From: a virus
Length of the DNA: 64,000 nucleotides
Direction: 5' to 3' (one strand)
Virus record (IMG/VR): IMGVR_UViG_3300042291_000957
Span: 1-64,000 of that record
In this document: piece by piece, positions 3,241 through 15,860 of the stretch
How the letters are laid out: each line of letters starts with the position of its first letter
Position numbering within the stretch: position 1 is the stretch's first letter
Translations under genes and position numbers: made by a program
Notes under the pieces: generated by a model
The model's database searches: none
What the model was told of the DNA's origin: nothing
What the model saw: only the letters and a program-made list of their open reading frames with translations

Positions 3241-4326
3241 ATGGCAAAGAGCACAGATATTTCCGTCCGCCAAGTCGGTCCAAAAGCCGCAAAGCGTTCT
3301 ATCCGCAAGGCGATTCAAACACGCCGCCCAGTGTTCCTGTGGGGTCCCCCAGGCATTGGTAAATCCGACATTGTCAAGCAGATTGGCCAGGACGCAGGCC
3401 GTGATGTTATCGACGTTCGACTGGCTCTGTGGGAACCTACAGACATTAAAGGTATTCCTTATTACGATGCCAGCAAGGGCACAATGGTTTGGGCTCCTCC
3501 AGGTGAACTGCCTATGGATCCAGAGAGTACCGCAATCATCTTCTTGGACGAGTTGAACTCCGCTCCTCCAGCTGTTCAGGCCGCTGCCTATCAGTTGATC
3601 CTTAACCGCAAGGTTGGTACTTACCACTTGCCTAAGGGTGTTGACATTGTTGCCGCTGGTAACCGTGAAGGCGATCGTGGCGTGACATATCGTATGCCTG
3701 CTCCGCTGGCTAACCGTTTCATTCACTTGGAAGCCAAGGTAGACTTTGATGACTTCCAAGAGTGGGCTGTGATGAACAATGTGCATCCAGAGGTTGTAGG
3801 CTATGTAGGCTTTGCCAAGCAGGACCTGTACGACTTCGATCCCAAGAGCCCTTCAAAGGCCTTTGCTACTCCACGCTCGTGGGTGTTTGTAAGCGACCTG
3901 CTCTGGGAAGACGACACTGACATTGATACTCTGCACAACCTGATCGCAGGTGCCGTAGGTGATGGCTTGGCTGTGAAGTTCATGGCTCACCGCAAGATTG
4001 CAGGTCGCTTGCCTAAAGCAGAAGACATCCTTAAGGGCAAGGTCAAGGACCTGCAGATTAAGGAAGTGTCAGCGATGTATTCTTTGACTGTTAGCCTGTG
4101 CTACGAGTTGAAGGATCAAGCAGAGAAGAAGGCCAAGGACTTTGATTCTCAGGCTGATAACTTCTTCCGCTACATGATGGATAACTTCCCAACAGAGTTG
4201 GTAGTAATGGGTGCTAAGACAGGCCTGACAAACTACAACCTGCCATTGGATGCAACAAAGATGAAGAGCTTTGACGAGTTCCACAAGCGATTCGGTAAGT
4301 ATGTTTTGAGTGCAATGGAGAATTAA
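3241..4326 (+). CDS. MoxR-type AAA ATPase
   Basis: A 361-residue ATPase. Walker A is WGPPGIGKS near residue 37; Walker B is IIFLDELNSA near residue 99; a sensor-1 region (VAAGNREGD) and a P-A-P-L-A-N-R-F arginine-finger stretch follow. This order, with DELN and NRF, is typical of MoxR/AAA_5 proteins. MoxR ATPases normally act with VWA-domain partners as metal-insertion or remodelling chaperones, and exactly such a partner is the next gene. SD AAAGAGG lies ahead of ATG 3241. A stem-loop follows the stop. Client in the infected cell is unknown. Confidence 0.88.
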   Translation: MAKSTDISVRQVGPKAAKRSIRKAIQTRRPVFLWGPPGIGKSDIVKQIGQDAGRDVIDVRLALWEPTDIKGIPYYDASKGTMVWAPPGELPMDPESTAIIFLDELNSAPPAVQAAAYQLILNRKVGTYHLPKGVDIVAAGNREGDRGVTYRMPAPLANRFIHLEAKVDFDDFQEWAVMNNVHPEVVGYVGFAKQDLYDFDPKSPSKAFATPRSWVFVSDLLWEDDTDIDTLHNLIAGAVGDGLAVKFMAHRKIAGRLPKAEDILKGKVKDLQIKEVSAMYSLTVSLCYELKDQAEKKAKDFDSQADNFFRYMMDNFPTELVVMGAKTGLTNYNLPLDATKMKSFDEFHKRFGKYVLSAMEN

Positions 4327-4384
4327 GACCTCGCCCTTGCAGGGGCGGGGAGCTTCTCAGGGCTTGCCCGCCCACCTATAGAGT

Positions 4385-4416
4385 GCCAGGGTGTTGCGTA
4401 AATACAACATCCTGGC
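4385..4416 (+). terminator. stem-loop after the MoxR gene
   Basis: 12-bp stem GCCAGGGTGTTG / CAACATCCTGGC (one G-T pair), 8-nt loop. No clear T-tract follows, as the next -35 box starts 3 nt later, so it may be a weak terminator or an RNA-stabilising hairpin. Confidence 0.55.
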
Positions 4417-4419
4417 CAC

Positions 4420-4448
4420 TTGACAACTTCGTCGTTTGGTGCTATAAT
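4420..4448 (+). promoter_or_regulatory. sigma70-type early promoter
   Basis: TTGACA (4420-4425), 17-nt spacer, TATAAT (4443-4448), upstream of the VWA/metallopeptidase gene. Confidence 0.92.
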
Positions 4449-4473
4449 ATATACATACTAAGGAGAGCGACAC

Positions 4474-5682
4474 ATGGACCCGATCATCGATAAACTAACT
4501 ACTGCTAGAGTAGGCCTACTGCTCAAAGCACCCTTCTTCGGCAATATGGCAACTCGTATGCAATTGATCGAAGCAGACGACTGGTGCCCGACTGCGGCTA
4601 CTAATGGTCGCAATTTCTATTACAATACCAAGTTCGTGCAGAAGCTCTCAGTCAAGAAGCTGGAGTTCCTATTCGGACACGAGATCTGCCATTGCGTGTT
4701 TGATCACTTTGGTCGTGTAGGTAGCAGAGATCGTATGCTGTCTAACATCGCACAAGACTACGCTGTCAACCAGATACTGGTAGACGAACGCATTGGTGAG
4801 AAGATTACAGAAGTTAAGATCTGCTACGATGCCAAGTACCGCGGTATGGCTTGGGAAGAGATCTACGACGAGCTCTGGGAAAAAGCAGAAAAGATCTCTT
4901 TGCCTGACCTGCTCAAGCAATTGGGCGACTTGTTGGACGAGCACATCAACGAAGATGGTTCGGGCCCAGGCAAAGAAGGTGATGGAGACAAGCAGGGCAA
5001 AGGTATGCCCACTATGACTAAAGAAGAAGCACAACAGATCCGCGATGAGATCAAAGAAGCCATGATCCAAAGTGCCGCGGCAGCAGGTGCAGGCAAGACT
5101 CCTATGGGTATCCAGCGCCTGATCAAAGATATGACTGAACCCAAGATTAGCTGGCGCGATCTTGTGCGTCAAGAGATCCAAAGCATCATCCGCAATGACT
5201 ACACATTCACTCGCCCAAGCCGTAAGGGACAGATGTCAGGTGCTATCCTGCCTGGTATGAAAGAAGCAACTACCATTGACGTAGGCATCTGCATTGATAT
5301 GTCGGGCTCCATTGGTGAAGAGGATGCAACTGTATTCCTTTCAGAAGTCAAAGGCATTATGGATCAATACGAGGACTTCAAGATCAACCTGTGGTGCTTT
5401 GATACTGCTATCTATAATCACAAAGAGATCTCGCAAGACAACAGTCACGATCTTGAAGAGTATGAGCCACAAGGTGGCGGTGGTACTGACTTTGAAGTCA
5501 ACTGGGACTTTATGAAAGATAATGGCATTGCTCCCAAGAAGTTCATTATGTTCACAGACGGCTACCCTTGCGGCAGTTGGGGCGATGAGGATTATTGCGA
5601 CACTATCTTTATTGTCAAAGGCAATACAGAAGCAGAAGCACCTTTTGGCCAGACTGTTATCTACGAGAAAGAAGCGGCATAA
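4474..5682 (+). CDS. putative metallopeptidase fused to VWA-like domain (MoxR partner)
   Basis: A 402-residue protein with the layout of DUF2201/VWA-like proteins. An N-terminal zincin-like motif HEICHCVFDH (HExxH, near residue 69) is followed by a flexible Gly/Glu/Lys-rich linker (residues 160-190) and a C-terminal VWA-like fold with a MIDAS motif DMSGSIGE near residue 275, plus FTDGYP near 360. In bacteria this family is encoded beside a MoxR-type ATPase, as here. The two genes have separate promoters but adjacent positions and probably form one complex. Whether the peptidase site is active cannot be told from sequence. A terminator follows. Confidence 0.85.
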   Translation: MDPIIDKLTTARVGLLLKAPFFGNMATRMQLIEADDWCPTAATNGRNFYYNTKFVQKLSVKKLEFLFGHEICHCVFDHFGRVGSRDRMLSNIAQDYAVNQILVDERIGEKITEVKICYDAKYRGMAWEEIYDELWEKAEKISLPDLLKQLGDLLDEHINEDGSGPGKEGDGDKQGKGMPTMTKEEAQQIRDEIKEAMIQSAAAAGAGKTPMGIQRLIKDMTEPKISWRDLVRQEIQSIIRNDYTFTRPSRKGQMSGAILPGMKEATTIDVGICIDMSGSIGEEDATVFLSEVKGIMDQYEDFKINLWCFDTAIYNHKEISQDNSHDLEEYEPQGGGGTDFEVNWDFMKDNGIAPKKFIMFTDGYPCGSWGDEDYCDTIFIVKGNTEAEAPFGQTVIYEKEAA

Positions 5683-5715
5683 TGGAAGTGCCGGGCTGTG
5701 TGGCTTTTTAGCAAC

Positions 5716-5728
5716 AGGCCCCGCTGCT
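5716..5728 (+). repeat. 13-nt repeat copy 1 (AGGCCCCGCTGCT)
   Basis: Identical to 10338-10350; both copies lie a few tens of nt downstream of a stop codon in early gene 3' regions. Confidence 0.65.
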
Positions 5729-5742
5729 ATACGTGTACAAAG

Positions 5743-5767
5743 ACCCTAGAACTTCTAGGGTTTCTTT
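5743..5767 (+). terminator. rho-independent terminator
   Basis: Stem ACCCTAGAA / TTCTAGGGT around one base or a small loop, followed by TTCTTTT; ends the metallopeptidase/VWA transcript. Confidence 0.8.
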
Positions 5768-5776
5768 TGACTTTGG

Positions 5777-5805
5777 TTGACGGAATCGCCAAAAGGCATT
5801 ATAAT
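5777..5805 (+). promoter_or_regulatory. sigma70-type early promoter
   Basis: TTGACG (5777-5782), 17-nt spacer, TATAAT (5800-5805). It lies too close to the ATG at 5808 for that to be the start, supporting ATG 5838. Confidence 0.88.
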
Positions 5806-5837
5806 TAATGCTTACACACACTAAACAGGAGCTAGAT

Positions 5838-6191
5838 ATGCAAGCAGTCGCAACAGTTATCACAGAGCAGTTGGTACAGGACGCAACCAACGAGGCAGGC
5901 ATCCAGGCCCGCTCAGCGGCTAAGGCATTCCACGCCAAGCATGGCGATCGTGACGCTTGTGGCTTTGCCTGGGTAAACGTCTACGGTGTTCGTAGCAACT
6001 CTAAGTTGGGCAAGTGGTTGGCAGCCGCAGGCTTCCGCAAAGACTACACGGGTGCATTGTGCCTGTGGAATCCAAGCGGCTTTCCTACACAATCGATCAG
6101 CATCCTGGAAGCAGGCGCTGAGGCCTACGCAGAAGTGATCAAGACCAAGTTGGGCTTGGACAAGGTCTACGCAGGAAGCAGGTTGGATTAA
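5838..6191 (+). CDS. hypothetical protein
   Basis: A 117-residue protein, Ala-rich at the N-terminus, with an aromatic core (GFAWVNVYGV, GALCLWNPSG). No family recognised. ATG 5838 is chosen because AGGAGC sits 6-7 nt upstream, and the longer in-frame start at 5808 falls within 3 nt of the -10 box. Its stop overlaps the next start (TAATG). Confidence 0.75.
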   Translation: MQAVATVITEQLVQDATNEAGIQARSAAKAFHAKHGDRDACGFAWVNVYGVRSNSKLGKWLAAAGFRKDYTGALCLWNPSGFPTQSISILEAGAEAYAEVIKTKLGLDKVYAGSRLD

Positions 6192-6511
6192 TGGAAGCCC
6201 TCCGGGAAACAACCGGGGGTGCCTTTCCCCCGCACATATATCTACTAGATGGAAACAATCTAGTATCGTATATAAAGAGTGGAGAATCAGAACCATTCTA
6301 TTTTAAGAATCCTATTAAAGGGTTTGATAAACGTGGTAGGAAGTTTGCAACTGTAACTCCTAATCCGTTTAAAGTCAAAGTACAAAGTAATTTAATAACA
6401 GTAAAAGGCTCCAATGACAAAGAATACACAATCGATCCAGATGCAAAAACCTGTACCTGTCCAGGGTTCACTTTCCGAGGTGCCTGCAAACACTTGGCCA
6501 GCAATAGTTAA
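6191..6511 (+). CDS. SWIM zinc-finger protein
   Basis: A 106-residue protein ending in a SWIM motif, CTCPGFTFRGACKHL (C-x-C-x(n)-C-x-H, residues 88-102). SWIM modules bind DNA or protein partners and occur in small T4-like phage proteins. The middle (VKVQSNLITVKGSNDKEY) is the β-strand platform normally seen ahead of the finger. Translationally coupled to the previous gene by TAATG. Confidence 0.8.
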   Translation: MEALRETTGGAFPPHIYLLDGNNLVSYIKSGESEPFYFKNPIKGFDKRGRKFATVTPNPFKVKVQSNLITVKGSNDKEYTIDPDAKTCTCPGFTFRGACKHLASNS

Positions 6512-6529
6512 ACGACTGCTGAGTGGCAA

Positions 6530-6757
6530 ATGAAACGATTCACCTTTTGGCGTAATTCCATCATATCAGAAGTCTACGTGGTTGAGTGCGAGACTGAGGA
6601 GCAGGCCCGAACCATGCTGAACGACGGTGAAGTGGATGTATTCTCAGAGGAGTGGGTGGACTGGGCAACTAGGGACTACGAGCTAGAGCACGAAGAGATC
6701 ATAGACCCTTTGTACCGTATGGTTAAAGACTACGAATCGGTTGACAGTTTGGGCTAA
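6530..6757 (+). CDS. small acidic hypothetical protein
   Basis: A 75-residue, strongly acidic protein (many Glu/Asp in residues 25-75) with no recognised motif. The sequence YVVECETEEQARTML near residue 16 is typical of small phage proteins with a βαβ start. The stop TAA lies inside the spacer of the next promoter. Confidence 0.6.
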   Translation: MKRFTFWRNSIISEVYVVECETEEQARTMLNDGEVDVFSEEWVDWATRDYELEHEEIIDPLYRMVKDYESVDSLG

Positions 6758-6769
6758 TGGCAGTATAAT
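6741..6769 (+). promoter_or_regulatory. sigma70-type early promoter
   Basis: TTGACA (6741-6746), 17-nt spacer, TATAAT (6764-6769); overlaps the 3' end of the upstream gene. Confidence 0.92.
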
Positions 6770-6797
6770 AAACACATACACACAAACAGGAGCTGAA

Positions 6798-6983
6798 ATG
6801 ATCAAACTCAAAGACATCCGTGAAGGCAGCGTGGTCATCGTGCGTGGCGCATTTGGCAGTGGGCCTGAGGAGCGTGTCAAAGTAGAAGAGGTTCACGCAG
6901 ACGTAAAGAACGGCCGTCCAGGCATTGACTACGAAGGTAGCTGGGCATATCTTACCCAGGTTCAGCGTGTGGTTACCTACTGA
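6798..6983 (+). CDS. small hypothetical protein (β-barrel-like)
   Basis: A 61-residue protein. Early residues IREGSVVIVRGAFGSGPEERVKVEEV look like a KOW/SH3-type small β-barrel, an impression from strand and glycine spacing only. ATG 6798 has AGGAGC upstream and the standard repeated leader. Confidence 0.65.
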   Translation: MIKLKDIREGSVVIVRGAFGSGPEERVKVEEVHADVKNGRPGIDYEGSWAYLTQVQRVVTY

Positions 6984-6987
6984 TTGG

Positions 6988-7016
6988 TTGACACTTTGGG
7001 CGTTTGGCAGTATAAT
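6988..7016 (+). promoter_or_regulatory. sigma70-type early promoter
   Basis: TTGACA (6988-6993), 17-nt spacer, TATAAT (7011-7016); leader nearly identical to that at 6770-6797. Confidence 0.92.
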
Positions 7017-7043
7017 AAACACATACACACAAAGGAGCGATAG

Positions 7044-7310
7044 ATGAAAGCATTAGAGAAGTTTTTAAAAGACAAGAATCACTGGAACTCATTCTTCAAG
7101 GGTCCCCAGTATAGCCTCAACAGTGCCAAGGACCGTCAGGCTGTGGCAGACATGATTGACTCAGCCTTGAGTCCAGAGAACTTGACCTGCGATGGCGAAC
7201 TGAGCCGTACAGAGGTCAATCGTCGATACAAAGAGTTAATGACTGCGGCCAAGCAACTCAAGAAGTTTGATCCAACAGTAACCTTTTACGAATACGAAAC
7301 GGAGATCTAA
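7044..7310 (+). CDS. hypothetical protein
   Basis: An 88-residue, mainly helical, Lys-rich protein. First gene of a four-gene run (7044-8410) behind one promoter. No motif recognised. Confidence 0.7.
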   Translation: MKALEKFLKDKNHWNSFFKGPQYSLNSAKDRQAVADMIDSALSPENLTCDGELSRTEVNRRYKELMTAAKQLKKFDPTVTFYEYETEI

Positions 7311-7311
7311 G

Positions 7312-7944
7312 ATGCCTAATTGGTGTTCAAATCATATCACAGTGCGTGGCACTGATCCTGCGGCAATCAAGCGATTAGCCGATGCATTTGACAACGGTGA
7401 GTTCTGCGGTACAGTAGTGCCTATGCCAGAAGAACTCAACATTACATCAGGCTCGTTGGGTGATCCTGTAGAACAGGCTGAACTAGAGGCCAAGAGTGCG
7501 GCCAACTTAGAGAAACATGGATTCGCTAACTGGTATGACTTCAATGTGGCCAAGTGGGGAACCAAGTGGGAGATCGGCGGCAACGGTGATGTTGCAGAGA
7601 TTGATGTGGATGGCTTGAGCTTCTCTGCACCCTTTGAAAGTGCCTGGAGCCCACCCATTGGTGTATGTGAAGCATTGGCTGAACAGGGCTTCGACGTCAC
7701 CCTTTACTACTACGAACCCGGCATGGGCTTTGTGGGCAAGTGGGAAGATGGTTTTGATGACTACTACGAATATGCAGGCGAGAACTCCAAGACTGTGAGA
7801 GCCGCTATTGGTGATGAGCTAGACGATATGTTTGGCATCAGTGAGTCAATGGCTGAATACGAAGCAGAGAATGAAGAAGAGGAAGAACTCACCGAATGGC
7901 TCAAGGATGGCATTGACAAAAAAGCTCAGTTGGTTGCATTATGA
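7312..7944 (+). CDS. YubB/DUF1281-like ferredoxin-fold protein
   Basis: A 210-residue protein. The opening PNWCSNHITVRG and the later NWYDFNVAKWGTKWEI are hallmarks of the YubB (Api92-like, DUF1281) family, a ferredoxin-like fold found on plasmids and phages with no established function. The acidic tail (residues 180-200) is unusually Glu-rich. It lies 1 nt after the previous stop and overlaps the next start by 4 nt (ATGA). Confidence 0.8.
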   Translation: MPNWCSNHITVRGTDPAAIKRLADAFDNGEFCGTVVPMPEELNITSGSLGDPVEQAELEAKSAANLEKHGFANWYDFNVAKWGTKWEIGGNGDVAEIDVDGLSFSAPFESAWSPPIGVCEALAEQGFDVTLYYYEPGMGFVGKWEDGFDDYYEYAGENSKTVRAAIGDELDDMFGISESMAEYEAENEEEEELTEWLKDGIDKKAQLVAL

Positions 7945-8234
7945 AAGTAATCAAACTGGATCGACGTTACAGTGGCTACGGCACTTGGACACATAGGACC
8001 AATGGTGGTTATTGGCAGGGTGAAGAAGCTCGTGCCAAAGGACTAATGGACTTCTACGATATGAGATGCTATATGACGCAGATGAATGGCCCGGGTTGTT
8101 TCATACACGAAGCCTGGGCCATTAAGAAGCATGGACAGGCAGTGCCTGATTGGGCTTGGGATACGGACGGCAATGTGTTCTTTCGTGACTCAGCTTTGGT
8201 TAACTTCACTTTGGCAAAGGATAGATGGCAATGA
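7941..8234 (+). CDS. hypothetical protein
   Basis: A 97-residue, aromatic-rich protein (many Trp, Tyr, Gly) coupled by ATGA to the YubB-like gene. No family recognised. Aromatic density suggests a compact β domain. Confidence 0.65.
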   Translation: MKVIKLDRRYSGYGTWTHRTNGGYWQGEEARAKGLMDFYDMRCYMTQMNGPGCFIHEAWAIKKHGQAVPDWAWDTDGNVFFRDSALVNFTLAKDRWQ

Positions 8235-8410
8235 GTAGACTATACACGTTCGTGTTCACTGTTGAGTGTGCATCAACCGGCTCTCCAGATCTAAGTAGAG
8301 CGGAAGAAATGATACATCTGAACATGCAAGAACTGGTTTATGATGACGAGTTCATCGCGGCCCTAGATGAAAAGGAGAGCGTGACAATTCAAGTTAATTT
8401 GGTAAAATGA
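8231..8410 (+). CDS. small hypothetical protein
   Basis: A 59-residue protein. ATG 8231 (MSRLYTF) is preferred to the in-frame ATG at 8225; both overlap the previous gene. Residues 5-14 and 50-58 look like paired β-strands around an acidic helix. Function unknown. Confidence 0.6.
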   Translation: MSRLYTFVFTVECASTGSPDLSRAEEMIHLNMQELVYDDEFIAALDEKESVTIQVNLVK

Positions 8411-8414
8411 ATGG

Positions 8415-8443
8415 TTGACGCCAAACCAAATTGGCGTTACAAT
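8415..8443 (+). promoter_or_regulatory. sigma70-type promoter
   Basis: TTGACG (8415-8420), 17-nt spacer, TACAAT (8438-8443), with a longer than usual leader before ATG 8500. Confidence 0.8.
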
Positions 8444-8499
8444 AGTAATACGCTGCTAACACAGCTAATTTTTAACACACACAGAAAGAGATATTTAAA

Positions 8500-8829
8500 A
8501 TGGCTACAGATAAAAAATTCGCAGTCGCAGGTGCTTCAACGTTTGGTGGTGACACCAAGATCCGATTCGCTAACGATATGATGCGTACCAAGATCCTCCA
8601 GAAGAATGGTCACACTGACATTGACTTGGTTGACCTGCCCAAAGAGATGACCAAGGCTGAAATCGTTCAGCACTTGAAGAGCATCAAGTTCGGTCAAGGC
8701 AATGCCGCTATCGAAGCTGCCATTGCCTACGCAGAGAAAAAGAATCCGTCAAGTACTAAGACGGTCAAGGCCAAGACTGCTACGGTCACGGCCACAGCGA
8801 CTTCTGAATCAGAAGACGCACCGTTCTAA
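8500..8829 (+). CDS. small protein with SSB-tail-like C-terminus
   Basis: A 109-residue protein: a globular half (residues 1-80), then a Thr/Ala/Lys linker (KTVKAKTATVTATAT) and the acidic end SESEDAPF. The last residues resemble the acidic, Pro-Phe-ending tip of bacterial SSB (consensus DDDIPF), which recruits repair enzymes. The body is not an OB fold by eye. Single-gene transcript closed by a strong terminator. Confidence 0.7.
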   Translation: MATDKKFAVAGASTFGGDTKIRFANDMMRTKILQKNGHTDIDLVDLPKEMTKAEIVQHLKSIKFGQGNAAIEAAIAYAEKKNPSSTKTVKAKTATVTATATSESEDAPF

Positions 8830-8830
8830 A

Positions 8831-8845
8831 CCGATTCGCTCCCGG
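8831..8845 (+). repeat. 15-nt repeat copy 2 (CCGATTCGCTCCCGG)
   Basis: Exact copy of 1930-1944, placed 2 nt after the stop codon and 16 nt before the terminator stem. Confidence 0.75.
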
Positions 8846-8860
8846 CTAAGAACCTTGATA

Positions 8861-8892
8861 GAGACCCTACTAACACTAGGGTCTCTTTTTTT
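8861..8892 (+). terminator. rho-independent terminator
   Basis: Stem GAGACCCTA / TAGGGTCTC with a 7-nt loop, followed by seven T. Confidence 0.92.
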
Positions 8893-8894
8893 GG

Positions 8895-8923
8895 TTGACA
8901 TTTTGGACATTGTGCGTTATAAT
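8895..8923 (+). promoter_or_regulatory. sigma70-type early promoter
   Basis: TTGACA (8895-8900), 17-nt spacer, TATAAT (8918-8923). First of four promoters of a subtype with TTTTGGACA...GTGCG and a leader ACACTTAGCAACAAAGGA. Confidence 0.92.
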
Positions 8924-8952
8924 AACAGCTTACACACACAAAAGGACACACA

Positions 8953-9204
8953 ATGTTTACAAATTGCATAGCATACGCAAAGCTAGTTTACAACAAAAAA
9001 CTAAAAGCATACAAAGTACAATTTGCTTTTAACGTACACAAAAAGTTAGTAGGCACTGACTACAAATATATATTTCCTGTGCAAAGCAAATGCAACTATG
9101 TTAGTGGGGACTTACTTGCAGACAACTTGCAAAACGAGGTGCAACGCACTGTGGCATCTGCGCAACAAAGTTTGCGTACTACAAACATAGTATTTGTTGA
9201 CTAA
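8953..9204 (+). CDS. hypothetical basic protein (YC-depleted island)
   Basis: An 83-residue, Lys/Tyr/Asn-rich protein, pI clearly basic. Only one Pro and three Ser, as expected from the near absence of TC and CC. No motif recognised. ATG 8953 follows AAAGGACACACA. Confidence 0.7.
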   Translation: MFTNCIAYAKLVYNKKLKAYKVQFAFNVHKKLVGTDYKYIFPVQSKCNYVSGDLLADNLQNEVQRTVASAQQSLRTTNIVFVD

Positions 9205-9228
9205 ACTGTAGGGTTATACATAGCGCAT

Positions 9229-9257
9229 TTGACATTTTGGACAAAGTGCGCTATAAT
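9229..9257 (+). promoter_or_regulatory. sigma70-type early promoter
   Basis: TTGACA (9229-9234), 17-nt spacer, TATAAT (9252-9257); leader AACTTAGCAACAAAGGA. Confidence 0.92.
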
Positions 9258-9282
9258 AACAACTTAGCAACAAAGGAACACA

Positions 9283-9426
9283 ATGCAAAATACTAAAAGC
9301 AAATTAGACAGTTTAATGTTACAGTTACAAGCAGTGCTAGAACAAGCAGGACTAGACGAACACGAGCGCATACAAAATGCTTTTAATGCACTTGCAATAG
9401 AACTAGACGACACAATTATAGCATAA
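9283..9426 (+). CDS. small helical hypothetical protein
   Basis: A 47-residue ORF that is short but well supported: perfect promoter, AAAGGA 6-7 nt before ATG, and the shared codon bias of the island (no TC, no CC at all). The product is almost all helix with Leu/Gln/Glu repeats and may form a small coiled coil. Confidence 0.7.
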   Translation: MQNTKSKLDSLMLQLQAVLEQAGLDEHERIQNAFNALAIELDDTIIA

Positions 9427-9458
9427 CACTACAGCGCATAGGGTTATTGCGCACACAC

Positions 9459-9487
9459 TTGACATTTTGGACAGTGTGTGCTATAAT
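9459..9487 (+). promoter_or_regulatory. sigma70-type early promoter
   Basis: TTGACA (9459-9464), 17-nt spacer, TATAAT (9482-9487). Confidence 0.92.
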
Positions 9488-9513
9488 TAACACTTAGCAA
9501 CAAAGGAGTGTGT

Positions 9514-9735
9514 ATGCAAGTAGAAGTAGTGGACATTGAGGCGGATGGTTTTTACAAAGACGCTAATGTTAGCGGCAACTGCGTAAAGGTTACACTGCGC
9601 AAAGGCACAGAGGTTGCAAGCTGTAGGCAGATACTTATTTGGGATGAGGAGTACGCAGAGGACTGCTTTGAGGACTGGAAGGACTGCGCACTTGCAGGCG
9701 AAGAGGGATACACTTACACAGAAGGAGCGATATGA
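9514..9735 (+). CDS. acidic hypothetical protein (YC-depleted island)
   Basis: A 73-residue acidic protein. ATG 9514 is used; an in-frame GTG at 9508 would overlap the AAGGAG ribosome site. Residues after LIWDEEYAEDCFEDWKD are strikingly Asp/Glu/Trp-rich, which suggests DNA mimicry or a charged binding face. No TC dinucleotide in the whole gene. Coupled to the next gene by ATGA. Confidence 0.72.
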   Translation: MQVEVVDIEADGFYKDANVSGNCVKVTLRKGTEVASCRQILIWDEEYAEDCFEDWKDCALAGEEGYTYTEGAI

Positions 9736-9914
9736 AGACAGTTTTTGTAGTGCAAGCACAGGGCTTTGGAGATGACGAGGACGCTTTTGAGAACATTGCG
9801 GCGTTTAGTACACTGGCTCTGGCAGACGCACACATTGCGGAACTGCAAGCACAGGACGCAGAGGAAGACAACGAGTTTGTATACAATGTGGACGCAATAA
9901 CCCTGCAGGCCTAA
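9732..9914 (+). CDS. acidic hypothetical protein (YC-depleted island)
   Basis: A 60-residue, Asp/Glu/Ala-rich protein starting with a β-strand MKTVFVVQAQGFGDDED. It overlaps the previous gene by 4 nt, so both are made from the promoter at 9459. The start resembles small phage proteins of unknown role. Confidence 0.68.
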   Translation: MKTVFVVQAQGFGDDEDAFENIAAFSTLALADAHIAELQAQDAEEDNEFVYNVDAITLQA

Positions 9915-9930
9915 GGGCCTTTATATTTTG
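9906..9930 (+). terminator. possible weak terminator
   Basis: AGGCC / GGCCT stem with a TAAG loop, then TTATATTTT, overlapping the stop codon. Confidence 0.45.
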
Positions 9931-9931
9931 G

Positions 9932-9960
9932 TTGACAGATTGGCTAAAGTGCGCTATAAT
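9932..9960 (+). promoter_or_regulatory. sigma70-type early promoter
   Basis: TTGACA (9932-9937), 17-nt spacer, TATAAT (9955-9960); same GTGCGC discriminator and leader as the other island promoters. Confidence 0.92.
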
Positions 9961-9986
9961 TAACACTTAGCAACAAAGGACGTACA

Positions 9987-10325
9987 ATGTACAAAGTTAA
10001 CGCAACACTAAACACAAACGGCAACGGCTATTGGAGCAGGACTGTAGCGGCTGTAGAGATTACACGACTGCAACTTGCGTACACTAACGACGAGTTGGAC
10101 TTTGGCGAACTGCGTGTTTATTTTAACACTGCAACTTGGGATGTAAACAAGCAGGGGCTTATATACACAGACAAGCAGTTTATGCGAGAGCTTAAAGAAC
10201 TGTTAACTAGCAAGGGCTTTGACGCTAGCGATGTAAGCTACAGCGAGCAGGGAATGCAAGGGGACAATTACGTTAGCTGTGACGTTGGCGAGCGTTTTAT
10301 TAATACGTTTATGCAACAGGCATAA
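9987..10325 (+). CDS. hypothetical protein (YC-depleted island)
   Basis: A 112-residue protein with mixed strands and helices; last gene of the island. The 339-nt gene contains no TC and no CC dinucleotide. No family recognised; aromatic-rich N-terminus and acidic middle. Confidence 0.72.
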   Translation: MYKVNATLNTNGNGYWSRTVAAVEITRLQLAYTNDELDFGELRVYFNTATWDVNKQGLIYTDKQFMRELKELLTSKGFDASDVSYSEQGMQGDNYVSCDVGERFINTFMQQA

Positions 10326-10337
10326 CAATAGGGGTGT

Positions 10338-10350
10338 AGGCCCCGCTGCT
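10338..10350 (+). repeat. 13-nt repeat copy 2 (AGGCCCCGCTGCT)
   Basis: Exact copy of 5716-5728, 13 nt after the stop of the gene at 9987. Confidence 0.65.
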
Positions 10351-10359
10351 TAACGCCGG

Positions 10360-10388
10360 TTGACAGCTAGCCAAAACCCTGCTATAAT
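10360..10388 (+). promoter_or_regulatory. sigma70-type early promoter
   Basis: TTGACA (10360-10365), 17-nt spacer, TATAAT (10383-10388), upstream of 10419. Confidence 0.92.
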
Positions 10389-10418
10389 ACATTTACACTA
10401 ACACACTTTGGAGCCAAG

Positions 10419-10709
10419 ATGAACATCACCCAAATCAACACAGCGATCCTGCAAGGTGGCTGGACCAATGATCAACTGTCAAGTATGATCGATGCGGTCA
10501 AGTTCGCCCGAGCACGTCTCACAGAACAGACCAAACGAAACCTGCGTATCGGTGACAATGTCAACTTCAACAGCACCAAACTGGGCCAGAACGTCACCGG
10601 CGTTGTGATCAAGATTGCTATCAAGTTTGTGACTGTTAAGACAGTGTCAGGCCTGTGGCGAGTGCCGGCCAATATGCTTACAGTGATCGAAGACCGAGAA
10701 TATGCGTAA
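10419..10709 (+). CDS. hypothetical protein with β-barrel-like C-terminus
   Basis: A 96-residue protein: an N-terminal helix pair (residues 1-42), then a strand-rich part (RIGDNVNFNS...GVVIKIAIKFVTVKTVSGLWRVPANML) that looks like a small SH3/KOW-type barrel. TC-containing codons are again normal, marking the end of the island. Confidence 0.68.
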   Translation: MNITQINTAILQGGWTNDQLSSMIDAVKFARARLTEQTKRNLRIGDNVNFNSTKLGQNVTGVVIKIAIKFVTVKTVSGLWRVPANMLTVIEDREYA

Positions 10710-10717
10710 ATAAACAT

Positions 10718-10960
10718 ATGAGCAGATTAGAATACTTTAACAGGCCCTTAGTGGCTTTTGATCCTTCCAAGAAAGAACATCGCGGTTTTTATGCAGAGTT
10801 CCTAAAGAAGGGCGGTTGGGGTCAATGTCCAGTAAGGTTCATTGTGCCCGAAGATTGTGGAGGAGACCTGATCTCAATGATTAAGAACAGTCTTATACAA
10901 TACTACATTGAACGAGAGTTTAATATCAAGGCCAGGGTAGGACGCCATTATGGAATTTGA
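10718..10960 (+). CDS. hypothetical protein
   Basis: An 80-residue protein. ATG 10718 is chosen because upstream in-frame sequence overlaps the previous gene. No recognised domain; VRFIVPEDCGGDLISMIKN has a βα look. It overlaps the next gene by 11 nt. Confidence 0.6.
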   Translation: MSRLEYFNRPLVAFDPSKKEHRGFYAEFLKKGGWGQCPVRFIVPEDCGGDLISMIKNSLIQYYIEREFNIKARVGRHYGI

Positions 10961-11339
10961 TCTGTTGGCCTTCTTGATCGGCTGTGTGATTGGCGGCATC
11001 GTAGGTTGGCGAGTGTGTGATCGCTTTCATACCTCGCTGACCACAGACCTACTCAAGGCTGTGGGAGTTGGTGAGAGTCAGCTGAAAAAAGCCATAGAGA
11101 ATCTACAGGCCGAACTGCCGCAGGGCACTGAACCAGCACTACCTGGTGTAGAAGTTCGGGTTGAGTCTGTTGACAATCAACTGTATGTGTATCGTTTGGA
11201 CACTATGGAGTTCCTTTGCCAGGGTGCCACTAGGGATGACATCATCAACTGTTTGGCCACAAGGTTCCACAAGGATTTCAAGATTATAGTGAGTGAAGAG
11301 CACGGTGCGCAATATCTAAAACCCAACCCTACTGCCTAA
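10950..11339 (+). CDS. membrane-anchored hypothetical protein
   Basis: A 129-residue protein. Residues 4-23 (LLAFLIGCVIGGIVGWRVCD) form an N-terminal membrane anchor with a GxxxG-like pattern; the rest is cytoplasmic or periplasmic, with a helix then a β-rich C-terminal domain (residues 65-120). Function unknown. Confidence 0.68.
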   Translation: MEFDLLAFLIGCVIGGIVGWRVCDRFHTSLTTDLLKAVGVGESQLKKAIENLQAELPQGTEPALPGVEVRVESVDNQLYVYRLDTMEFLCQGATRDDIINCLATRFHKDFKIIVSEEHGAQYLKPNPTA

Positions 11340-11350
11340 AGGGGCTTTGA

Positions 11351-11379
11351 TTGACAGTGTGTCAGAATGGTGCTATAAT
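11351..11379 (+). promoter_or_regulatory. sigma70-type promoter giving a leaderless mRNA
   Basis: TTGACA (11351-11356), 17-nt spacer, TATAAT (11374-11379). The next ATG (11386) is 6 nt after the -10 box, where the transcript should begin. Confidence 0.88.
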
Positions 11380-11385
11380 AAACAC

Positions 11386-11622
11386 ATGACATACAAAAAC
11401 ATAGACAACATATTGCAGTGGACAGGTGCCGTGGCCATTGTGCTGGGACACGCCTTCAACGCCATGGGACCAGTGATGTATCCTTGGAACATCATTGTGT
11501 TTGCCATAGGAACTGTGATGTTTTTGCTGTGGGCTCTGCGAGTAGGCAATCGGCCACAGCTGATGGTCAACGTGGTTTCGTTGGCCATAGGTATTTTGGG
11601 TCTTGTCAAGGCTATCAGTTGA
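11386..11622 (+). CDS. multi-pass membrane protein (leaderless)
   Basis: A 78-residue protein with about three hydrophobic segments (residues 12-26, 31-47, 57-77). ATG 11386 sits at the predicted +1 of a perfect promoter with no room for a Shine-Dalgarno site, so translation should be leaderless; a longer upstream ORF start would precede the promoter's own -10 box. Confidence 0.65.
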   Translation: MTYKNIDNILQWTGAVAIVLGHAFNAMGPVMYPWNIIVFAIGTVMFLLWALRVGNRPQLMVNVVSLAIGILGLVKAIS

Positions 11623-11656
11623 TATTTGTAAACCAAACCAGCACCAAAGGCGTTAT

Positions 11657-11878
11657 ATGATTACACTAGAAGGTTTAAGTCAGCAACAGGTACAGATCGC
11701 TGAAATGTTGTGGAAATGCAACAGTCTTGAAGATGTTGATAGGTTGGTTAGGAATATGCCGCCTACCTATCGTCAAGATGCTGTGGTTGTGAAAGAGCTG
11801 TTGATAGCCGCTGGTTTGGATGACTACCAAGAAACTGATCTAGCCGAAAGGGCTTTGGTTGACATCTTTGGGCGGTAA
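11657..11878 (+). CDS. small helical hypothetical protein
   Basis: A 73-residue helical protein beginning MITLEGLSQQQVQIAEMLW. Start at ATG 11657; the longer in-frame ATG at 11603 lies inside the preceding gene. Similar small helical proteins are seen in T4-like phages of aquatic hosts, function unknown. Its stop lies in the spacer of the next promoter. Confidence 0.66.
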   Translation: MITLEGLSQQQVQIAEMLWKCNSLEDVDRLVRNMPPTYRQDAVVVKELLIAAGLDDYQETDLAERALVDIFGR

Positions 11879-11887
11879 TGTTACACT
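11859..11887 (+). promoter_or_regulatory. sigma70-type promoter
   Basis: TTGACA (11859-11864), 17-nt spacer, TACACT (11882-11887); overlaps the end of the preceding gene. Confidence 0.65.
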
Positions 11888-11910
11888 GTAAACACAGTAA
11901 GGAGAACGCA

Positions 11911-12264
11911 ATGAAGAAGTTTGTATTAGCAATCATGATCACGGTCAGTTCTATCGGTTCAGCACAGGCCTGGGGCGATCGCGAACAAGGCGCCCTGGCA
12001 GGCCTAATCGTAGGTGCCATCGCACACAGAGCCTTTAGCCAACCTCAGCAGACGGGCTATCCACCTGTTCAGCAAGGCTTCCCCCAGCAGATGCCTACTC
12101 AGCAGTATCCTGTCTACTCCCCACAGCCACAGATCATTGTACAGGCTCCGGACATAATCTATCAGCCACAGCCTATGCAACGGCAGTGCCATACCTTTCC
12201 ACAGTATGATGTCTACGGCCGCTTTCACGGCAACCGCACTGTGTGCCGTATGGTTCCTTACTGA
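11911..12264 (+). CDS. secreted Gln/Pro-rich protein
   Basis: A 117-residue protein with a clear Sec signal peptide: MKK, hydrophobic core, and the cleavage-like AQA-W near residue 19. A glycine-alanine helix (GALAGLIVGAIAHRAF) follows, resembling a glycine-zipper insertion segment, then a Gln/Pro/Tyr-rich stretch and a CHTF...RTVCR pair that could form a disulphide. Probably acts in the envelope or periplasm. ATG 11911 has AAGGAG upstream. Confidence 0.75.
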   Translation: MKKFVLAIMITVSSIGSAQAWGDREQGALAGLIVGAIAHRAFSQPQQTGYPPVQQGFPQQMPTQQYPVYSPQPQIIVQAPDIIYQPQPMQRQCHTFPQYDVYGRFHGNRTVCRMVPY

Positions 12265-12293
12265 TTGACTAGAATCACTTTTGGCGTTATAAT
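12265..12293 (+). promoter_or_regulatory. sigma70-type promoter
   Basis: TTGACT (12265-12270), 17-nt spacer, TATAAT (12288-12293). Confidence 0.88.
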
Positions 12294-12321
12294 TAACACT
12301 TAGACACACTAGGAGCGCGAT

Positions 12322-12435
12322 ATGTTAAAGCTGATTGGATTCTGCACAGTGATATGGGCCTTGTTCTACTTTGGCATTGCTCAGTTGGCAGCCATCTGGG
12401 GCATGGTGGCCTTGAGTTCTGTGGCTAGTCTGTGA
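12322..12435 (+). CDS. 37-residue membrane peptide
   Basis: A short hydrophobic ORF with good expression signals: promoter 12265-12293, AGGAGCG 7 nt before ATG 12322, and a TGATG overlap with the next gene. The product is one long hydrophobic helix with two Trp. Size and hydrophobicity fit a membrane-modifying peptide. Confidence 0.65.
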   Translation: MLKLIGFCTVIWALFYFGIAQLAAIWGMVALSSVASL

Positions 12436-12836
12436 TGCAGTATCACATAGAAGCTGGCGCTAAGACTCGCCAGTACATAGAAGCAGTCTTGCCCTCCATG
12501 CTCACACAGTTGGGACTGAACAGTAGCCGCAGACTGTTGGTCGTAAAGGTTGATCAAGATCTAGAAGAGATGGGCACCACAGTGCCGCTCACAGGTATAG
12601 ACACATTCCTGGTTGTGCTCAAGCCTACTCGCAACTGGGTGAACCTAGGAGTCACTTTGGCACACGAGTTGACTCACGTGGCGCAGTTTGCCAAAGGTCT
12701 ACTCAAACCCACAGCCAAGGGCAGGTTGTGGAAGGGCAAGCTCTACAAGAACAATCATCCTTATCTTGATCAACCCTGGGAAATACAGGCCTTTGCCAAG
12801 CAGGAAATCATATTCCGTAGGGCAATAGAGTTGTAA
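12435..12836 (+). CDS. SprT/zincin-like metallopeptidase
   Basis: A 133-residue protein with the zinc-protease signature LAHELTHVAQ (HExxH) near residues 75-84 and a downstream Glu in WEIQAFAKQE at about 115-124 as a probable third ligand. The size and the late Glu fit minimal SprT-like or gluzincin-type domains. Coupled to the membrane peptide by TGATG, suggesting a shared envelope or protein-processing role. Substrate unknown. Confidence 0.75.
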   Translation: MQYHIEAGAKTRQYIEAVLPSMLTQLGLNSSRRLLVVKVDQDLEEMGTTVPLTGIDTFLVVLKPTRNWVNLGVTLAHELTHVAQFAKGLLKPTAKGRLWKGKLYKNNHPYLDQPWEIQAFAKQEIIFRRAIEL

Positions 12837-12855
12837 AAATACAACACCATTTTGG

Positions 12856-12884
12856 TTGACTGATTGGGCTAATGGCCGTATAAT
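12856..12884 (+). promoter_or_regulatory. sigma70-type early promoter
   Basis: TTGACT (12856-12861), 17-nt spacer, TATAAT (12879-12884). Confidence 0.9.
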
Positions 12885-12917
12885 TAACACATACACACAA
12901 ACAAACAGGAACACACA

Positions 12918-13229
12918 ATGGCTAAACTGTTAATCACAACCCAGACATACGAGAACTACGGTGCCCACGATTGGGACGGTGTTGGCGAGTGCCCACAGTA
13001 CTGGAAAGCCAAGGGTGGTTCGGACTACGTGGTCAAGAACATCAACGTCAACAAGGTCACAGAGACCGTGATGGGTGTGCGTGGTCAGATCGAGTGCGAC
13101 AACTACGCTTTCCGCGAAACAATCATTGACTGGACTATCGTGGCTGACGATGCGCTCACAGAGTTTGAGCAGAGCCAGTTGGCTTACGAGGGCAAGATCC
13201 GTTATGGTTCTAAGGAGTTGGCATGGTAA
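12918..13229 (+). CDS. hypothetical protein
   Basis: A 103-residue protein opening with a strand then Tyr/Trp/Gly-rich segments (TYENYGAHDWDGVGECPQYWK). The pattern recurs in small phage proteins but I know no function. It overlaps the next small gene by 7 nt. Confidence 0.7.
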   Translation: MAKLLITTQTYENYGAHDWDGVGECPQYWKAKGGSDYVVKNINVNKVTETVMGVRGQIECDNYAFRETIIDWTIVADDALTEFEQSQLAYEGKIRYGSKELAW

Positions 13230-13318
13230 TTGAACAGGCTATTGTAAACCTAATCATAGTGTTTATCCCTGTAATCATTATGGGTATTGCTATCCTAGTG
13301 GTTGACGGATTGGACTAA
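13223..13318 (+). CDS. 31-residue membrane peptide
   Basis: A single hydrophobic helix (residues 7-27, Ile/Val-rich). ATG 13223 has AAGGAG upstream within the previous gene; the stop TAA lies in the spacer of the next promoter, an arrangement repeated in this arm. Confidence 0.55.
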   Translation: MVIEQAIVNLIIVFIPVIIMGIAILVVDGLD

Positions 13319-13330
13319 TGATCGTATAAT
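13302..13330 (+). promoter_or_regulatory. sigma70-type early promoter
   Basis: TTGACG (13302-13307), 17-nt spacer, TATAAT (13325-13330). Confidence 0.88.
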
Positions 13331-13360
13331 AGATACATACAGACACAAAAGGAACACACG

Positions 13361-13444
13361 ATGACAGATACACAAATTATTGTAACAGTTCTAGTAGTAG
13401 CAGTTGTTTTTGCAGTTAAGGTATGGATTCTTACAAAGATCTAA
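13361..13444 (+). CDS. 27-residue membrane peptide
   Basis: One hydrophobic helix (IIVTVLVVAVVFAVKVWIL) behind its own promoter and AAAGGA ribosome site. Second of two consecutive tiny membrane ORFs; function unknown. Confidence 0.55.
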   Translation: MTDTQIIVTVLVVAVVFAVKVWILTKI

Positions 13445-13479
13445 TACACTGACAGGTTAAAGGGTTATTATTTGTTTGG

Positions 13480-13508
13480 TTGACTGATTGGCAAATTGAA
13501 CATATAAT
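13480..13508 (+). promoter_or_regulatory. sigma70-type promoter of the ORF-less transcript
   Basis: TTGACT (13480-13485), 17-nt spacer, TATAAT (13503-13508). Unlike all neighbours, no SD/ATG follows. Confidence 0.88.
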
Positions 13509-13514
13509 AGATAC

Positions 13515-13835
13515 AAGAAGAAACAAAAAGCAAGGCGATCCTCAAATGTAAGAACCCAGCAGAAATGCAAGCAGGGTTGTAACTAAAGGATACGAAGCGA
13601 GTTTAGAGACTCGGTCTAAGCAGAACAGTTAGAAAAGAGTTAGAGGTTACCTACACCGTTAGGGACTGTAAAGAGAGAAGCGAAGGGGCACCTACGCAAT
13701 CTTACAGTCCAAGAAGGCAAGGCGAAAGCTGAGGTTGACGGATACGGTAGGAAGTAATGACCGGCACGGCCTGTGAGAGATGCGCTTACGGGTAGAGACA
13801 GAGAGTTGACAATGGTTCCTTTAATTCTTTTCTAA
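13515..13835 (+). ncRNA. candidate structured non-coding RNA, about 320 nt
   Basis: No ORF longer than 12 codons exists in the + strand between two consensus promoters. Several local stems can be drawn: AACCC/GGGTT (13553-13557 with 13574-13578) enclosing GCA-GAAA-TGC; CGAGT/ACTCG (13598-13613); a 9-bp GGACTGTAA/TTACAGTCC (13663-13671 with 13702-13710); CGGT/ACCG (13745-13748 with 13760-13763); CCTGT/ACGGG (13770-13774 with 13788-13792). Purine-rich joining segments (GAAGCGAAGG, AAGGCGAAAGC) look like tertiary-contact elements. It does not match tRNA, tmRNA, group I or group II core motifs that I can recognise. Ends are approximate: +1 inferred from the -10 box, 3' end placed before the next promoter near TTCTTTTCT. 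Confidence 0.6.
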
Positions 13836-13839
13836 CTGG

Positions 13840-13868
13840 TTGACACCTAGCCCAAAAGAACATATAAT
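13840..13868 (+). promoter_or_regulatory. sigma70-type early promoter
   Basis: TTGACA (13840-13845), 17-nt spacer, TATAAT (13863-13868). Confidence 0.92.
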
Positions 13869-13897
13869 AGATACATACAGACACAAAGGAGCACACA

Positions 13898-14056
13898 ATG
13901 ACTAATCAACTTACCGTAGCACAACTGATCCAACTCTTGCAAGCCATTCCTAACCAGAACGCTCGTGTAGATATGGCCATGAACCAAGAGTACCAAGATG
14001 CCGTTGAGGCTTCAGACATTAACGACTACGGCGATCTCGTTGTAATCGGCCAATAA
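13898..14056 (+). CDS. small hypothetical protein
   Basis: A 52-residue ORF with promoter, standard leader and AAAGGAGC before ATG 13898. The sequence VAQLIQLLQAIP...VDMAMNQEY... resembles small phage proteins with an N-terminal helix and a β-hairpin end. Its stop is inside the inverted repeat of the next promoter. Confidence 0.68.
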   Translation: MTNQLTVAQLIQLLQAIPNQNARVDMAMNQEYQDAVEASDINDYGDLVVIGQ

Positions 14057-14093
14057 CCCAGCGGTTGACTGGGTTATCGTTTGACAGTATAAT
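14054..14093 (+). promoter_or_regulatory. promoter with its -35 box inside a hairpin
   Basis: TTGACT (14065-14070), 17-nt spacer, TATAAT (14088-14093). An inverted repeat TAACCCAG / CTGGGTTA (14054-14061 with 14069-14076) surrounds most of the -35 hexamer. It could be an operator or a hairpin that ends the upstream RNA. Confidence 0.75.
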
Positions 14094-14124
14094 AGACACA
14101 TACAAACACACTAGGGAACACAAA

Positions 14125-14508
14125 ATGGCCAAAGTAAATTATGACGCATTCCGCTCATTCGACATTAACGAATGCTGTGACCACTTTGACAGTGAGAAGC
14201 AGGCAAACTGGAAGAAGATTGGCAAGTTCATCGTAGCAGATGGACAAGACTACGCCCACATTATGGAGTCAGAATTCGACTTTGAAGACACAGGTGCAGG
14301 CGAGTACGAGGCCTTTGCCGCAGGCGTCAAGTATGCGCTCACAAAGATGAACATTGCATTTGAGGCAGCAGGTCTGGACTTGGAAGTTAAAGAAGCAGAT
14401 TTGGTAGAAAGCATGGGATACATGTTGGTACTTGCTGACGATGAGCCTGAGGACTTTGTGAAACGTGTTATGAAGAAGCCTGTGCTACACGTGGAAAGCT
14501 GGGTCTAA
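14125..14508 (+). CDS. acidic hypothetical protein
   Basis: A 127-residue, strongly acidic protein (Asp/Glu clusters throughout) with a helical centre. ATG 14125 follows GGGAACACAAA; the longer upstream start lies inside the promoter. No family recognised. Runs directly into the next gene (stop then ATG). Confidence 0.68.
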   Translation: MAKVNYDAFRSFDINECCDHFDSEKQANWKKIGKFIVADGQDYAHIMESEFDFEDTGAGEYEAFAAGVKYALTKMNIAFEAAGLDLEVKEADLVESMGYMLVLADDEPEDFVKRVMKKPVLHVESWV

Positions 14509-14745
14509 ATGGGTTGGGTAGTATACGATGAGCGCACAGGGCATATGGAGAAGTACTACAAGAAGGCTGCCACTGCCCGGCGCATAGTGACCCAGCACAA
14601 TACAGAACGCCAGTACGATGGATGGACCTATCAGCCAAGTAGGATGTGGGCCTGTTGCTCATACAGAGACTATGAAGGCATCCTACTGGGCCTCAAAGGT
14701 GAAGCACTCAAGATGTGGCAGTTTTGCAACACTCAACTTGGTTGA
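14509..14745 (+). CDS. hypothetical protein
   Basis: A 78-residue basic, aromatic-rich protein starting MGWVVYDERTG, with KYYKKAATARRIVTQHN as a likely helix. Stop TGA (14743-14745) is within the next -35 box. Function unknown. Confidence 0.65.
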   Translation: MGWVVYDERTGHMEKYYKKAATARRIVTQHNTERQYDGWTYQPSRMWACCSYRDYEGILLGLKGEALKMWQFCNTQLG

Positions 14746-14770
14746 CTGATTGGCTATCCTTTGCTATAAT
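14742..14770 (+). promoter_or_regulatory. sigma70-type early promoter
   Basis: TTGACT (14742-14747), 17-nt spacer, TATAAT (14765-14770). Confidence 0.9.
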
Positions 14771-14800
14771 AGACACATAGCAAGCAAAAAGGTAGCCAAA

Positions 14801-15280
14801 ATGATTAGACTGATTAGCACTGTAATTTTAGCGTTCACAGCATTCACAGCCCAGGCAGCTCAAGAACACATGGAGTTCAAGACAGCACAAGATTGCCAGG
14901 CTGTGTTTACAGGCTTCCACACACAGACCAAACAGCTGGGCTTGACACGCTATGATCACCAAGGTCAAGCCTACTTTGTCAAAGACGGTTATGTGGGCTA
15001 CTGGTCAGCTGGCAATGGCTGTGATCAAGCTGCCAAGTTGACTATGGAACCCGTGGCTGAATTCAAAGCACGATTTGCTGCCAACAACAAGGCACAGGCT
15101 GACGAAGCATTTTGCTCCAGCATGACCTGCAAGGTATTGGTAGGTACAGCGGTAGTGGTTGTACTGGCAGCGGCTCTTAAGGGTGGTGCCAATGTTGGCT
15201 GTGTTCTTCCTAGCGATCGTGCTAGTGATGGTAGCCGTTGCGGTAACCGTGCTAGTTCTGTGCGTCCAGGCGGTAAGTGA
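14801..15280 (+). CDS. secreted protein with C-terminal membrane helix
   Basis: A 159-residue protein. Residues 1-19 are a signal peptide (hydrophobic core then AQA-AQ). The mature part has three Cys (AQDCQAV, GNGCDQA, CSSMTC) and ends with a hydrophobic helix (KVLVGTAVVVVLAAALKGG). The tail after that is low-complexity. A hydrophobic ORF in another frame begins at 15192 inside it. Placement in the envelope is likely; function unknown. Confidence 0.68.
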   Translation: MIRLISTVILAFTAFTAQAAQEHMEFKTAQDCQAVFTGFHTQTKQLGLTRYDHQGQAYFVKDGYVGYWSAGNGCDQAAKLTMEPVAEFKARFAANNKAQADEAFCSSMTCKVLVGTAVVVVLAAALKGGANVGCVLPSDRASDGSRCGNRASSVRPGGK

Positions 15281-15284
15281 TTGG

Positions 15285-15313
15285 TTGACAAGTTATCCAA
15301 AAGACAGTATAAT
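15285..15313 (+). promoter_or_regulatory. sigma70-type early promoter
   Basis: TTGACA (15285-15290), 17-nt spacer, TATAAT (15308-15313). Confidence 0.92.
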
Positions 15314-15339
15314 AAACACATACAAACAAAGGAGCACAT

Positions 15340-15561
15340 ATGTTTCATACAGACCAACAAGTAGAGTTCAAGCAGACACTGCGCAGGTTCACAGAAGCTG
15401 CCTACAACAACTATGGCGGTCACGCTTATGCCGCAGGCTACCTAGAGAGTATGGCTGTACAGATGCTGGCTGTAATGAGCAAGCGTGAACAGCAGGGCTT
15501 TATCCGTGCTATGCAAGACGCTGTTAAACAGCAACAGGCTCAAGCTAAGGAGCCAGTATGA
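15340..15561 (+). CDS. small helical hypothetical protein
   Basis: A 73-residue protein, helical, with a Gln/Ala-rich end. Phage-like conserved appearance (AYAAGYLESMAVQMLAVMSKREQ). AAAGGAGC before ATG 15340. Overlaps the next gene by 4 nt. Confidence 0.68.
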   Translation: MFHTDQQVEFKQTLRRFTEAAYNNYGGHAYAAGYLESMAVQMLAVMSKREQQGFIRAMQDAVKQQQAQAKEPV

Positions 15562-15758: not shown

Positions 15759-15787
15759 AGGTGAGGGGTAGGTTGGTGGTCGGTGAC

Positions 15788-15860
15788 AGGTGGTGAGGGG
15801 TATAGGTTATAGTGTATACTATACTACTACTATTGTACTAGTGGTAGCAAATCACCACCT
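15788..15860. repeat. 9-bp inverted repeat bounding a 55-nt loop
   Basis: AGGTGGTGA (15788-15796) and TCACCACCT (15852-15860) are perfect complements, in a G-rich/TA-rich stretch that separates the early arm from the mixed-strand region. No gene in 15759-15942. Confidence 0.6.

Follow-up and report, generated by a model that had tools for sequence, protein, structure and literature searches.

We found a small gene island in a phage genome whose coding strand is almost free of the dinucleotides TC and CC (pyrimidine-C, or YC). The island lies in a 64,000-nt window (positions 1 to 64,000 of the IMG/VR virus record IMGVR_UViG_3300042291_000957). The source record is a 90.4-kb virus contig that encodes a terminase, a tail sheath protein, a DnaB-like helicase and a UvsX-like recombinase. 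As a maximal-scoring segment the island spans 8885 to 10338 on the + strand (score 98.9), contains 8 YC in 1454 nt and is the sole such segment in the 90-kb record. It consists of five genes encoding proteins of 47 to 112 amino acids (aa) behind four TTGACA-17-TATAAT promoters. The YC depletion is real, strong and conserved. Our best explanation, with a rough probability of 0.4, is that a promoter-defined set of genes is selected to be YC-free on its transcript, host Rho being the best named candidate for the factor that reads YC.

Expected counts were taken from base composition or from codon-matched resampling, in which synonymous codons were drawn with the usage of neighboring genes in 2,000 runs. 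In 8891-10335, where the deficit had been noticed by eye in the original prediction, the counts are exactly those reported: three TC (9075, 9157, and 9818) with 63 expected from composition, and five CC (9076, 9901, 9902, 9910, and 9918) with 49 expected. Four of the CC, at 9901-9919, are in or adjoin a terminator hairpin. The remaining YC are in coding sequence, at a conserved Phe-Pro (TTTCCT), one Ser codon (TCT) and one junction (GCT-CTG). The codon-matched control gave 73.6 ± 7.3 YC for the five genes (minimum 49) against 7 observed. As predicted, the rule crosses codon boundaries and spacers: codon junctions (3 YC) and spacers are depleted as well, leaders and terminator arms behave in the same way, and the 500-nt windows beside the island have ordinary YC. 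C after a purine is raised in the island (AC 0.30 vs 0.24, GC 0.32 vs 0.25). Since both TC and CC are lost while AC and GC are kept, the rule applies to YC and not to C as such, and under it C may follow only a purine. The T content does not rise, TT is kept or favored, and proline is almost gone from the island proteins.

Homologs of genes 5, 1, 3 and 4 and of two other island genes were fetched from IMG/VR. The same kind of island is present in dozens of IMG/VR contigs, always on the coding strand, and this class is found in many freshwater phages as one small cluster of short early-type genes. In four whole records (90, 208, 280, and 353 kb) one island per record is above the threshold, and it follows the coding strand whichever way the genes run; 12-kb loci occasionally carry a second small island (loci L048 and L149). 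The strictest islands contain 1 YC with 89 expected (L146), 2 with 135 (L160) and 2 with 121 (L007). Both YC of L007 fall within one conserved proline codon, and this proline is lost in L141, L146 and L160. The gene families are mostly private to islands (F0, F14, F55, F41, F23, F33, and others), and all fetched homologs of gene 3 (F55) have zero YC. Family F21 is depleted in L045, where it is inside the island, and normal in other loci, where it is outside; neighboring small genes show no YC depletion. The island proteins are small and mostly acidic. Their gene content is variable, and comparison of island gene content found no gene shared by all islands.

The effect had been described as confined to the sense strand. 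The strand bias is indeed strong, with 79 GG in 8891-10335 (0.95 of expected), but it is not total, as TGA, GAT, GGT, TGG and GAA are under-used in the sense strand too. GA is abundant as stated, although the count is 86 (0.73 of expected) and not about 80. After codon control TGAT and TGGT in the sense strand stand at 0.11 and 0.23 of expectation, and TGA, GAT and GGT stay under-used. This second and weaker rule is a context shift, as total GR hardly changes (0.92). The reverse complements of the avoided words head the coding-strand list (TCA>TTC>CCA>ACC>ATC; r = 0.78), and only WYCA contexts are common to the depletion of both strands. In families F26 and F15, TGA/GAT/GGT are avoided at normal YC, and in F41 YC is lost with hardly any such avoidance; the second rule is therefore partly independent of YC loss. 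Either a component at the DNA level or a codon preference of its own could underlie it. In genes just outside islands (L048 6831, L017 6603, L058 6635, and others; F26 and F15), TGA/GAT/GGT are found at 0.56-0.70 of expected and YC is kept.

The borders of the islands agree with transcription units, a promoter at one end and a terminator at the other. At the first promoters the 30 nt upstream of the -35 box are normal (3.0 vs 2.6 YC), YC between the -35 and -10 hexamers is 0.42 of normal, and the downstream transcribed part is at 0.06 (p = 1e-7). On the exit side the depletion runs to the terminator, which itself retains YC. Leftover YC sites are found in promoter spacers, terminator hairpins, gaps between the Shine-Dalgarno sequence and ATG, and a few codons. 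Borders at promoters and terminators are taken as evidence for selection on RNA, with the partly depleted promoter spacers as a caveat. The promoter subtype that the five genes were said to share was also found: TGYGY-TATAAT occurs in 51 of 73 depleted-gene promoters and in 15 of 363 normal ones (odds ratio 54, p = 2e-35, an optimistic value because related promoters are not independent; near-identical ones were removed). Depleted-gene promoters are also enriched in ATTTTGG after the -35 box, and internal promoters frequently lie inside a YC-free dyad. Part of the promoter-spacer depletion may come from this shared variant. Being common to the depleted genes, the variant makes the gene set behave like a regulon.

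It was concluded that selection, not C-to-T mutation, produced the depletion. YC is normal in remote homologs of gene 5 (56-60% identity). Those richest in YC use TCN codons for conserved Ser, where depleted homologs have AGY. The direction of replacement was read from pairwise counts between homologs: YC sites of normal homologs become RC, RG, RA, YA, YG or YT in depleted ones, with YT at 21% compared to 27% between two normal homologs (control). Val, Thr and Ala shift to A-ending codons rather than T-ending ones, Ile shifts to both, and NNA codons rise in place of NNC while NNT codons do not. Outside islands a terminator hairpin reads ATAACCC...AGGGTTAT; inside, the arm is often ATAACAC, which breaks one stem pair and removes two CC. 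The mixed replacements, AGY serines, A-ending codons and the non-coding CCC to CAC change, together with the flat T content, led us to reject the cytidine-deaminase history proposed in the original prediction. Among its options, escape from an RNA factor recognizing UC and CC, with selection on the RNA sense, is the best-supported class. Two further candidates were rejected. One was unusually unstructured mRNA (minimum free energy per nt -0.214 vs -0.194 in shuffles; flank -0.250 vs -0.238), the other dipyrimidine mutation by sunlight (ultraviolet), where TT is kept or favored and the effect is local.

It is likely that purifying selection acts site by site against YC on the sense RNA of these small early-type genes, and we infer that YC is read by a factor acting on RNA. 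Naming host Rho as this agent is tentative. On nascent RNA, the dinucleotides bound by Rho are CC and UC, and Rho acts as a barrier against foreign genes, phage genes included (PMC13323073); YC dimers are bound by its primary RNA site (PMC9160355). Rho was the first choice because YC is the dinucleotide it binds, the bias is on the coding strand, and the borders are those of transcripts. The loss of YC on transcribed sense RNA is as expected of Rho-evading or purine-biased genes, and many leftover YC lie in promoter spacers, terminator hairpins and Shine-Dalgarno-to-ATG gaps, where Rho could hardly act. In the proposed mechanism, selection would keep the sense transcripts of the promoter-defined early-type genes free of YC. 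Each of the six primary sites of Rho binds a YC dinucleotide on nascent RNA, and a YC-free message would offer Rho no loading site. The island genes would then be fully transcribed even when ribosomes trail RNA polymerase loosely, possibly in the first moments of infection or while host translation is shut down by defense or starvation.

Several observations weigh against Rho evasion. Several YC at a spacing of 9-13 nt are required for Rho, and selection would accordingly be expected to ease well before zero, yet the strictest islands are at about 1%. A rut-like spacing (9-13 nt) was not found among leftover YC, whose pairs at 5-20 nt are at 0.88 of expectation (z = -0.7). Further genes in these phages, with similar sigma-70 promoters, keep normal YC, though Rho would meet them as well. 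The promoter spacers are partly depleted, the terminator stem, with its paired YC, is altered too, and the avoidance of TGA/GAT/GGT is not predicted by Rho evasion. No Rho domain was found in the four phage records. A search for the Rho inhibitor Psu gave no match, and neither did the control of that search.

Somewhat less probable, and in our opinion doubtful, is a YC-specific endoribonuclease (RNase), encoded by the phage to shut off the host or by the host for defense, that is active during expression of the regulon and cuts at every YC. If the phage encodes the enzyme, its operon would be the island itself, with takeover or anti-defense genes co-expressed. An RNase would explain the strictness at each single site and the random spacing of leftover YC (each YC is avoided without a clustering rule, as expected of cut-site avoidance), the confinement to one promoter-defined set, and the sense-strand bias with transcript borders; small island proteins of no known family also suit it. 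It fits the site-by-site strictness about as well as Rho, and better than Rho when strictness, the absent spacing rule and the normal YC of neighbor genes are considered together. Against it, a limited literature search turned up no bacterial or phage RNase with YC specificity, and we know of no such enzyme for these phages. No gene is common to all islands, and the RNase-H-like fold matches of gene 1 are weak and none is significant. An RNase also leaves the change in the paired terminator stem and the TGA/GAT/GGT avoidance unaccounted for. With either agent, expression of the regulon must fall at a time when the YC-reading activity is of greater consequence for it than for the remaining genome. 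It is rather unlikely, though conceivable, that the phages run a regulon set apart by a promoter variant and by YC-free RNA, which would be exempt from a YC-specific RNA-destroying or transcription-stopping activity deployed during infection, so that dinucleotide content itself would tell protected from unprotected RNA.

Selection at the DNA level is improbable. Here a DNA-targeting system recognizing YC or WYCA, for example through a CRISPR protospacer adjacent motif (PAM), would cause the motif to be purged at one locus such as an anti-CRISPR operon. The same order of contexts on both strands (the correlation given above) agrees with it. Anti-defense proteins are often small, acidic and variable in content, as the island proteins are. 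PAM depletion in phages is established (PMC12174588, PMC4246573). Yet the cold YC contexts are lost on the coding strand only, the borders track promoters and terminators, and spacer-by-spacer selection would not hit zero over 1.5 kb. The other-strand signal occurs with normal YC in F26 and F15 and is almost missing in the depleted F41; equal depletion of both strands independent of transcription units, as a PAM would give, was not found.

Transcription-coupled cytosine deamination with an APOBEC-like YC preference is very improbable. In its favor, deaminases classically act on C in a YC context, and of the two strands the non-template one is exposed. APOBEC3 deaminases prefer TC (PMC7449416). 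The replacements described above are not C-to-T and leave no excess of C-to-T products, GAT to GAC and GAA to GAG changes run in the wrong direction, and a deaminase domain is missing in three of the four records searched, including that of the window. The 208-kb relative alone carries a dCMP/cytidine deaminase domain (G004:C1:51741-52154), probably for nucleotide metabolism. A bias in codons or amino acids specific to small accessory genes, akin to the extreme codon avoidance of the original prediction, would fit the rise of A-ending codons and the near absence of proline, but it is hardly credible as the depletion is not confined to codons (junctions, spacers, leaders and terminator arms obey the same rule), neighboring small genes do not follow it, and F21 is depleted only next to island genes.

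All features of the window island are on the + strand. Its left border is the intrinsic terminator of the upstream gene (8860-8886, from the terminator scan and the sequence), with normal YC. The first island promoter (8895-8923) has TGCGT before the -10 box and is followed by gene 1 (8953-9204, 83 aa, F14, basic; 3 YC vs 19 expected), which holds the conserved Phe-Pro retaining TC and CC. An internal promoter at 9229-9257 (TGCGC before the -10 box) lies within the YC-free dyad AGCGCA...TGCGCT. Gene 2 (9283-9426, 47 aa, F33) has 0 YC. Remnant terminator arms ATAACAC...AGGGTTAT follow at 9423-9447, with CAC where a non-island arm can be CCC (L045 5325: ataaccctacagcgcat and AGGGTTAT). Another internal promoter (9459-9487, TGTGC before the -10 box) precedes gene 3 (9514-9735, 73 aa, acidic, 0 YC) and gene 4 (9732-9914, 60 aa, F23, acidic). 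The terminator scan placed a hairpin, AGGCCTAAGGGCCT, at 9907-9920, where the CC pairs are retained. The promoter of gene 5 (9932-9960) has TGCGC before the -10 box. Gene 5 (9987-10325, 112 aa, F0) has 0 YC, and its AlphaFold2 model has a predicted local distance difference test score (pLDDT) of 94. Domain searches gave no match of the island proteins to a known domain or family, nuclease domains included, and a PDB structure search with genes 1 and 5 gave no significant match. The predicted structure of gene 5 has close relatives in BFVD (A0A6J5TA95, M1HTR4, and A0A1J0F9Z3). One distant homolog of gene 5 is found in Xanthomonas phage X1, and no carrier was found among the bacterial genomes searched for this gene.

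The window DNA has no close match in 50,697 phage records. In window positions 1-16000 and in related loci, small genes almost always have their own consensus TTGACA-17-TATAAT promoter, which often overlaps the terminator hairpin of the upstream gene. A promoter-driven, apparently non-coding transcript (gttagaaaagagttagaggttacctacaccgttaggg...) at 13480-13830 recurs near islands in many related contigs and has no Rfam match. Strand composition shifts at about 16000-20000, and long genes are on the minus strand past about 20 kb. A tryptophan halogenase-like gene (phrog_2928, E-value 2e-106) is located at 19047-20534.

Messages that have themselves lost a dinucleotide are known from the avoidance of RNase or mRNA-interferase sites, as in the loss of UU/UA against RNase L in hepatitis C virus; here the loss concerns one gene cluster only, and no YC-specific enzyme is known for these phages. 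The Rho-driven purine bias of bacterial genes (PMC13323073) is similar in that the coding strand is shaped against Rho loading on CC/UC and purine-ending codons are favored. The island differs in being limited to one regulon and almost absolute, with C after purine kept, and the role of Rho here is proposed. PAM depletion (PMC12174588, PMC4246573) also purges a very short motif from phage sequence, but it is genome-wide, mild and on both strands, whereas the island is local, near-total and coding-strand biased. The APOBEC3 footprint (PMC7449416) resembles the island in the under-representation of TC (and CC) on one strand; the island has transversions and codon-family switches instead of a C-to-T excess. 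Genome-wide dinucleotide avoidance in viruses is already known. What differs here is a near-absolute purge confined to one promoter-defined gene set, which as far as we could find has not been described. The loss of YC marks these short phage proteins as one functional regulon, and YC-free composition provides a homology-free way to find such genes in any sequence. The island also permits a direct test of whether Rho or a new RNase is the reader of YC during infection.
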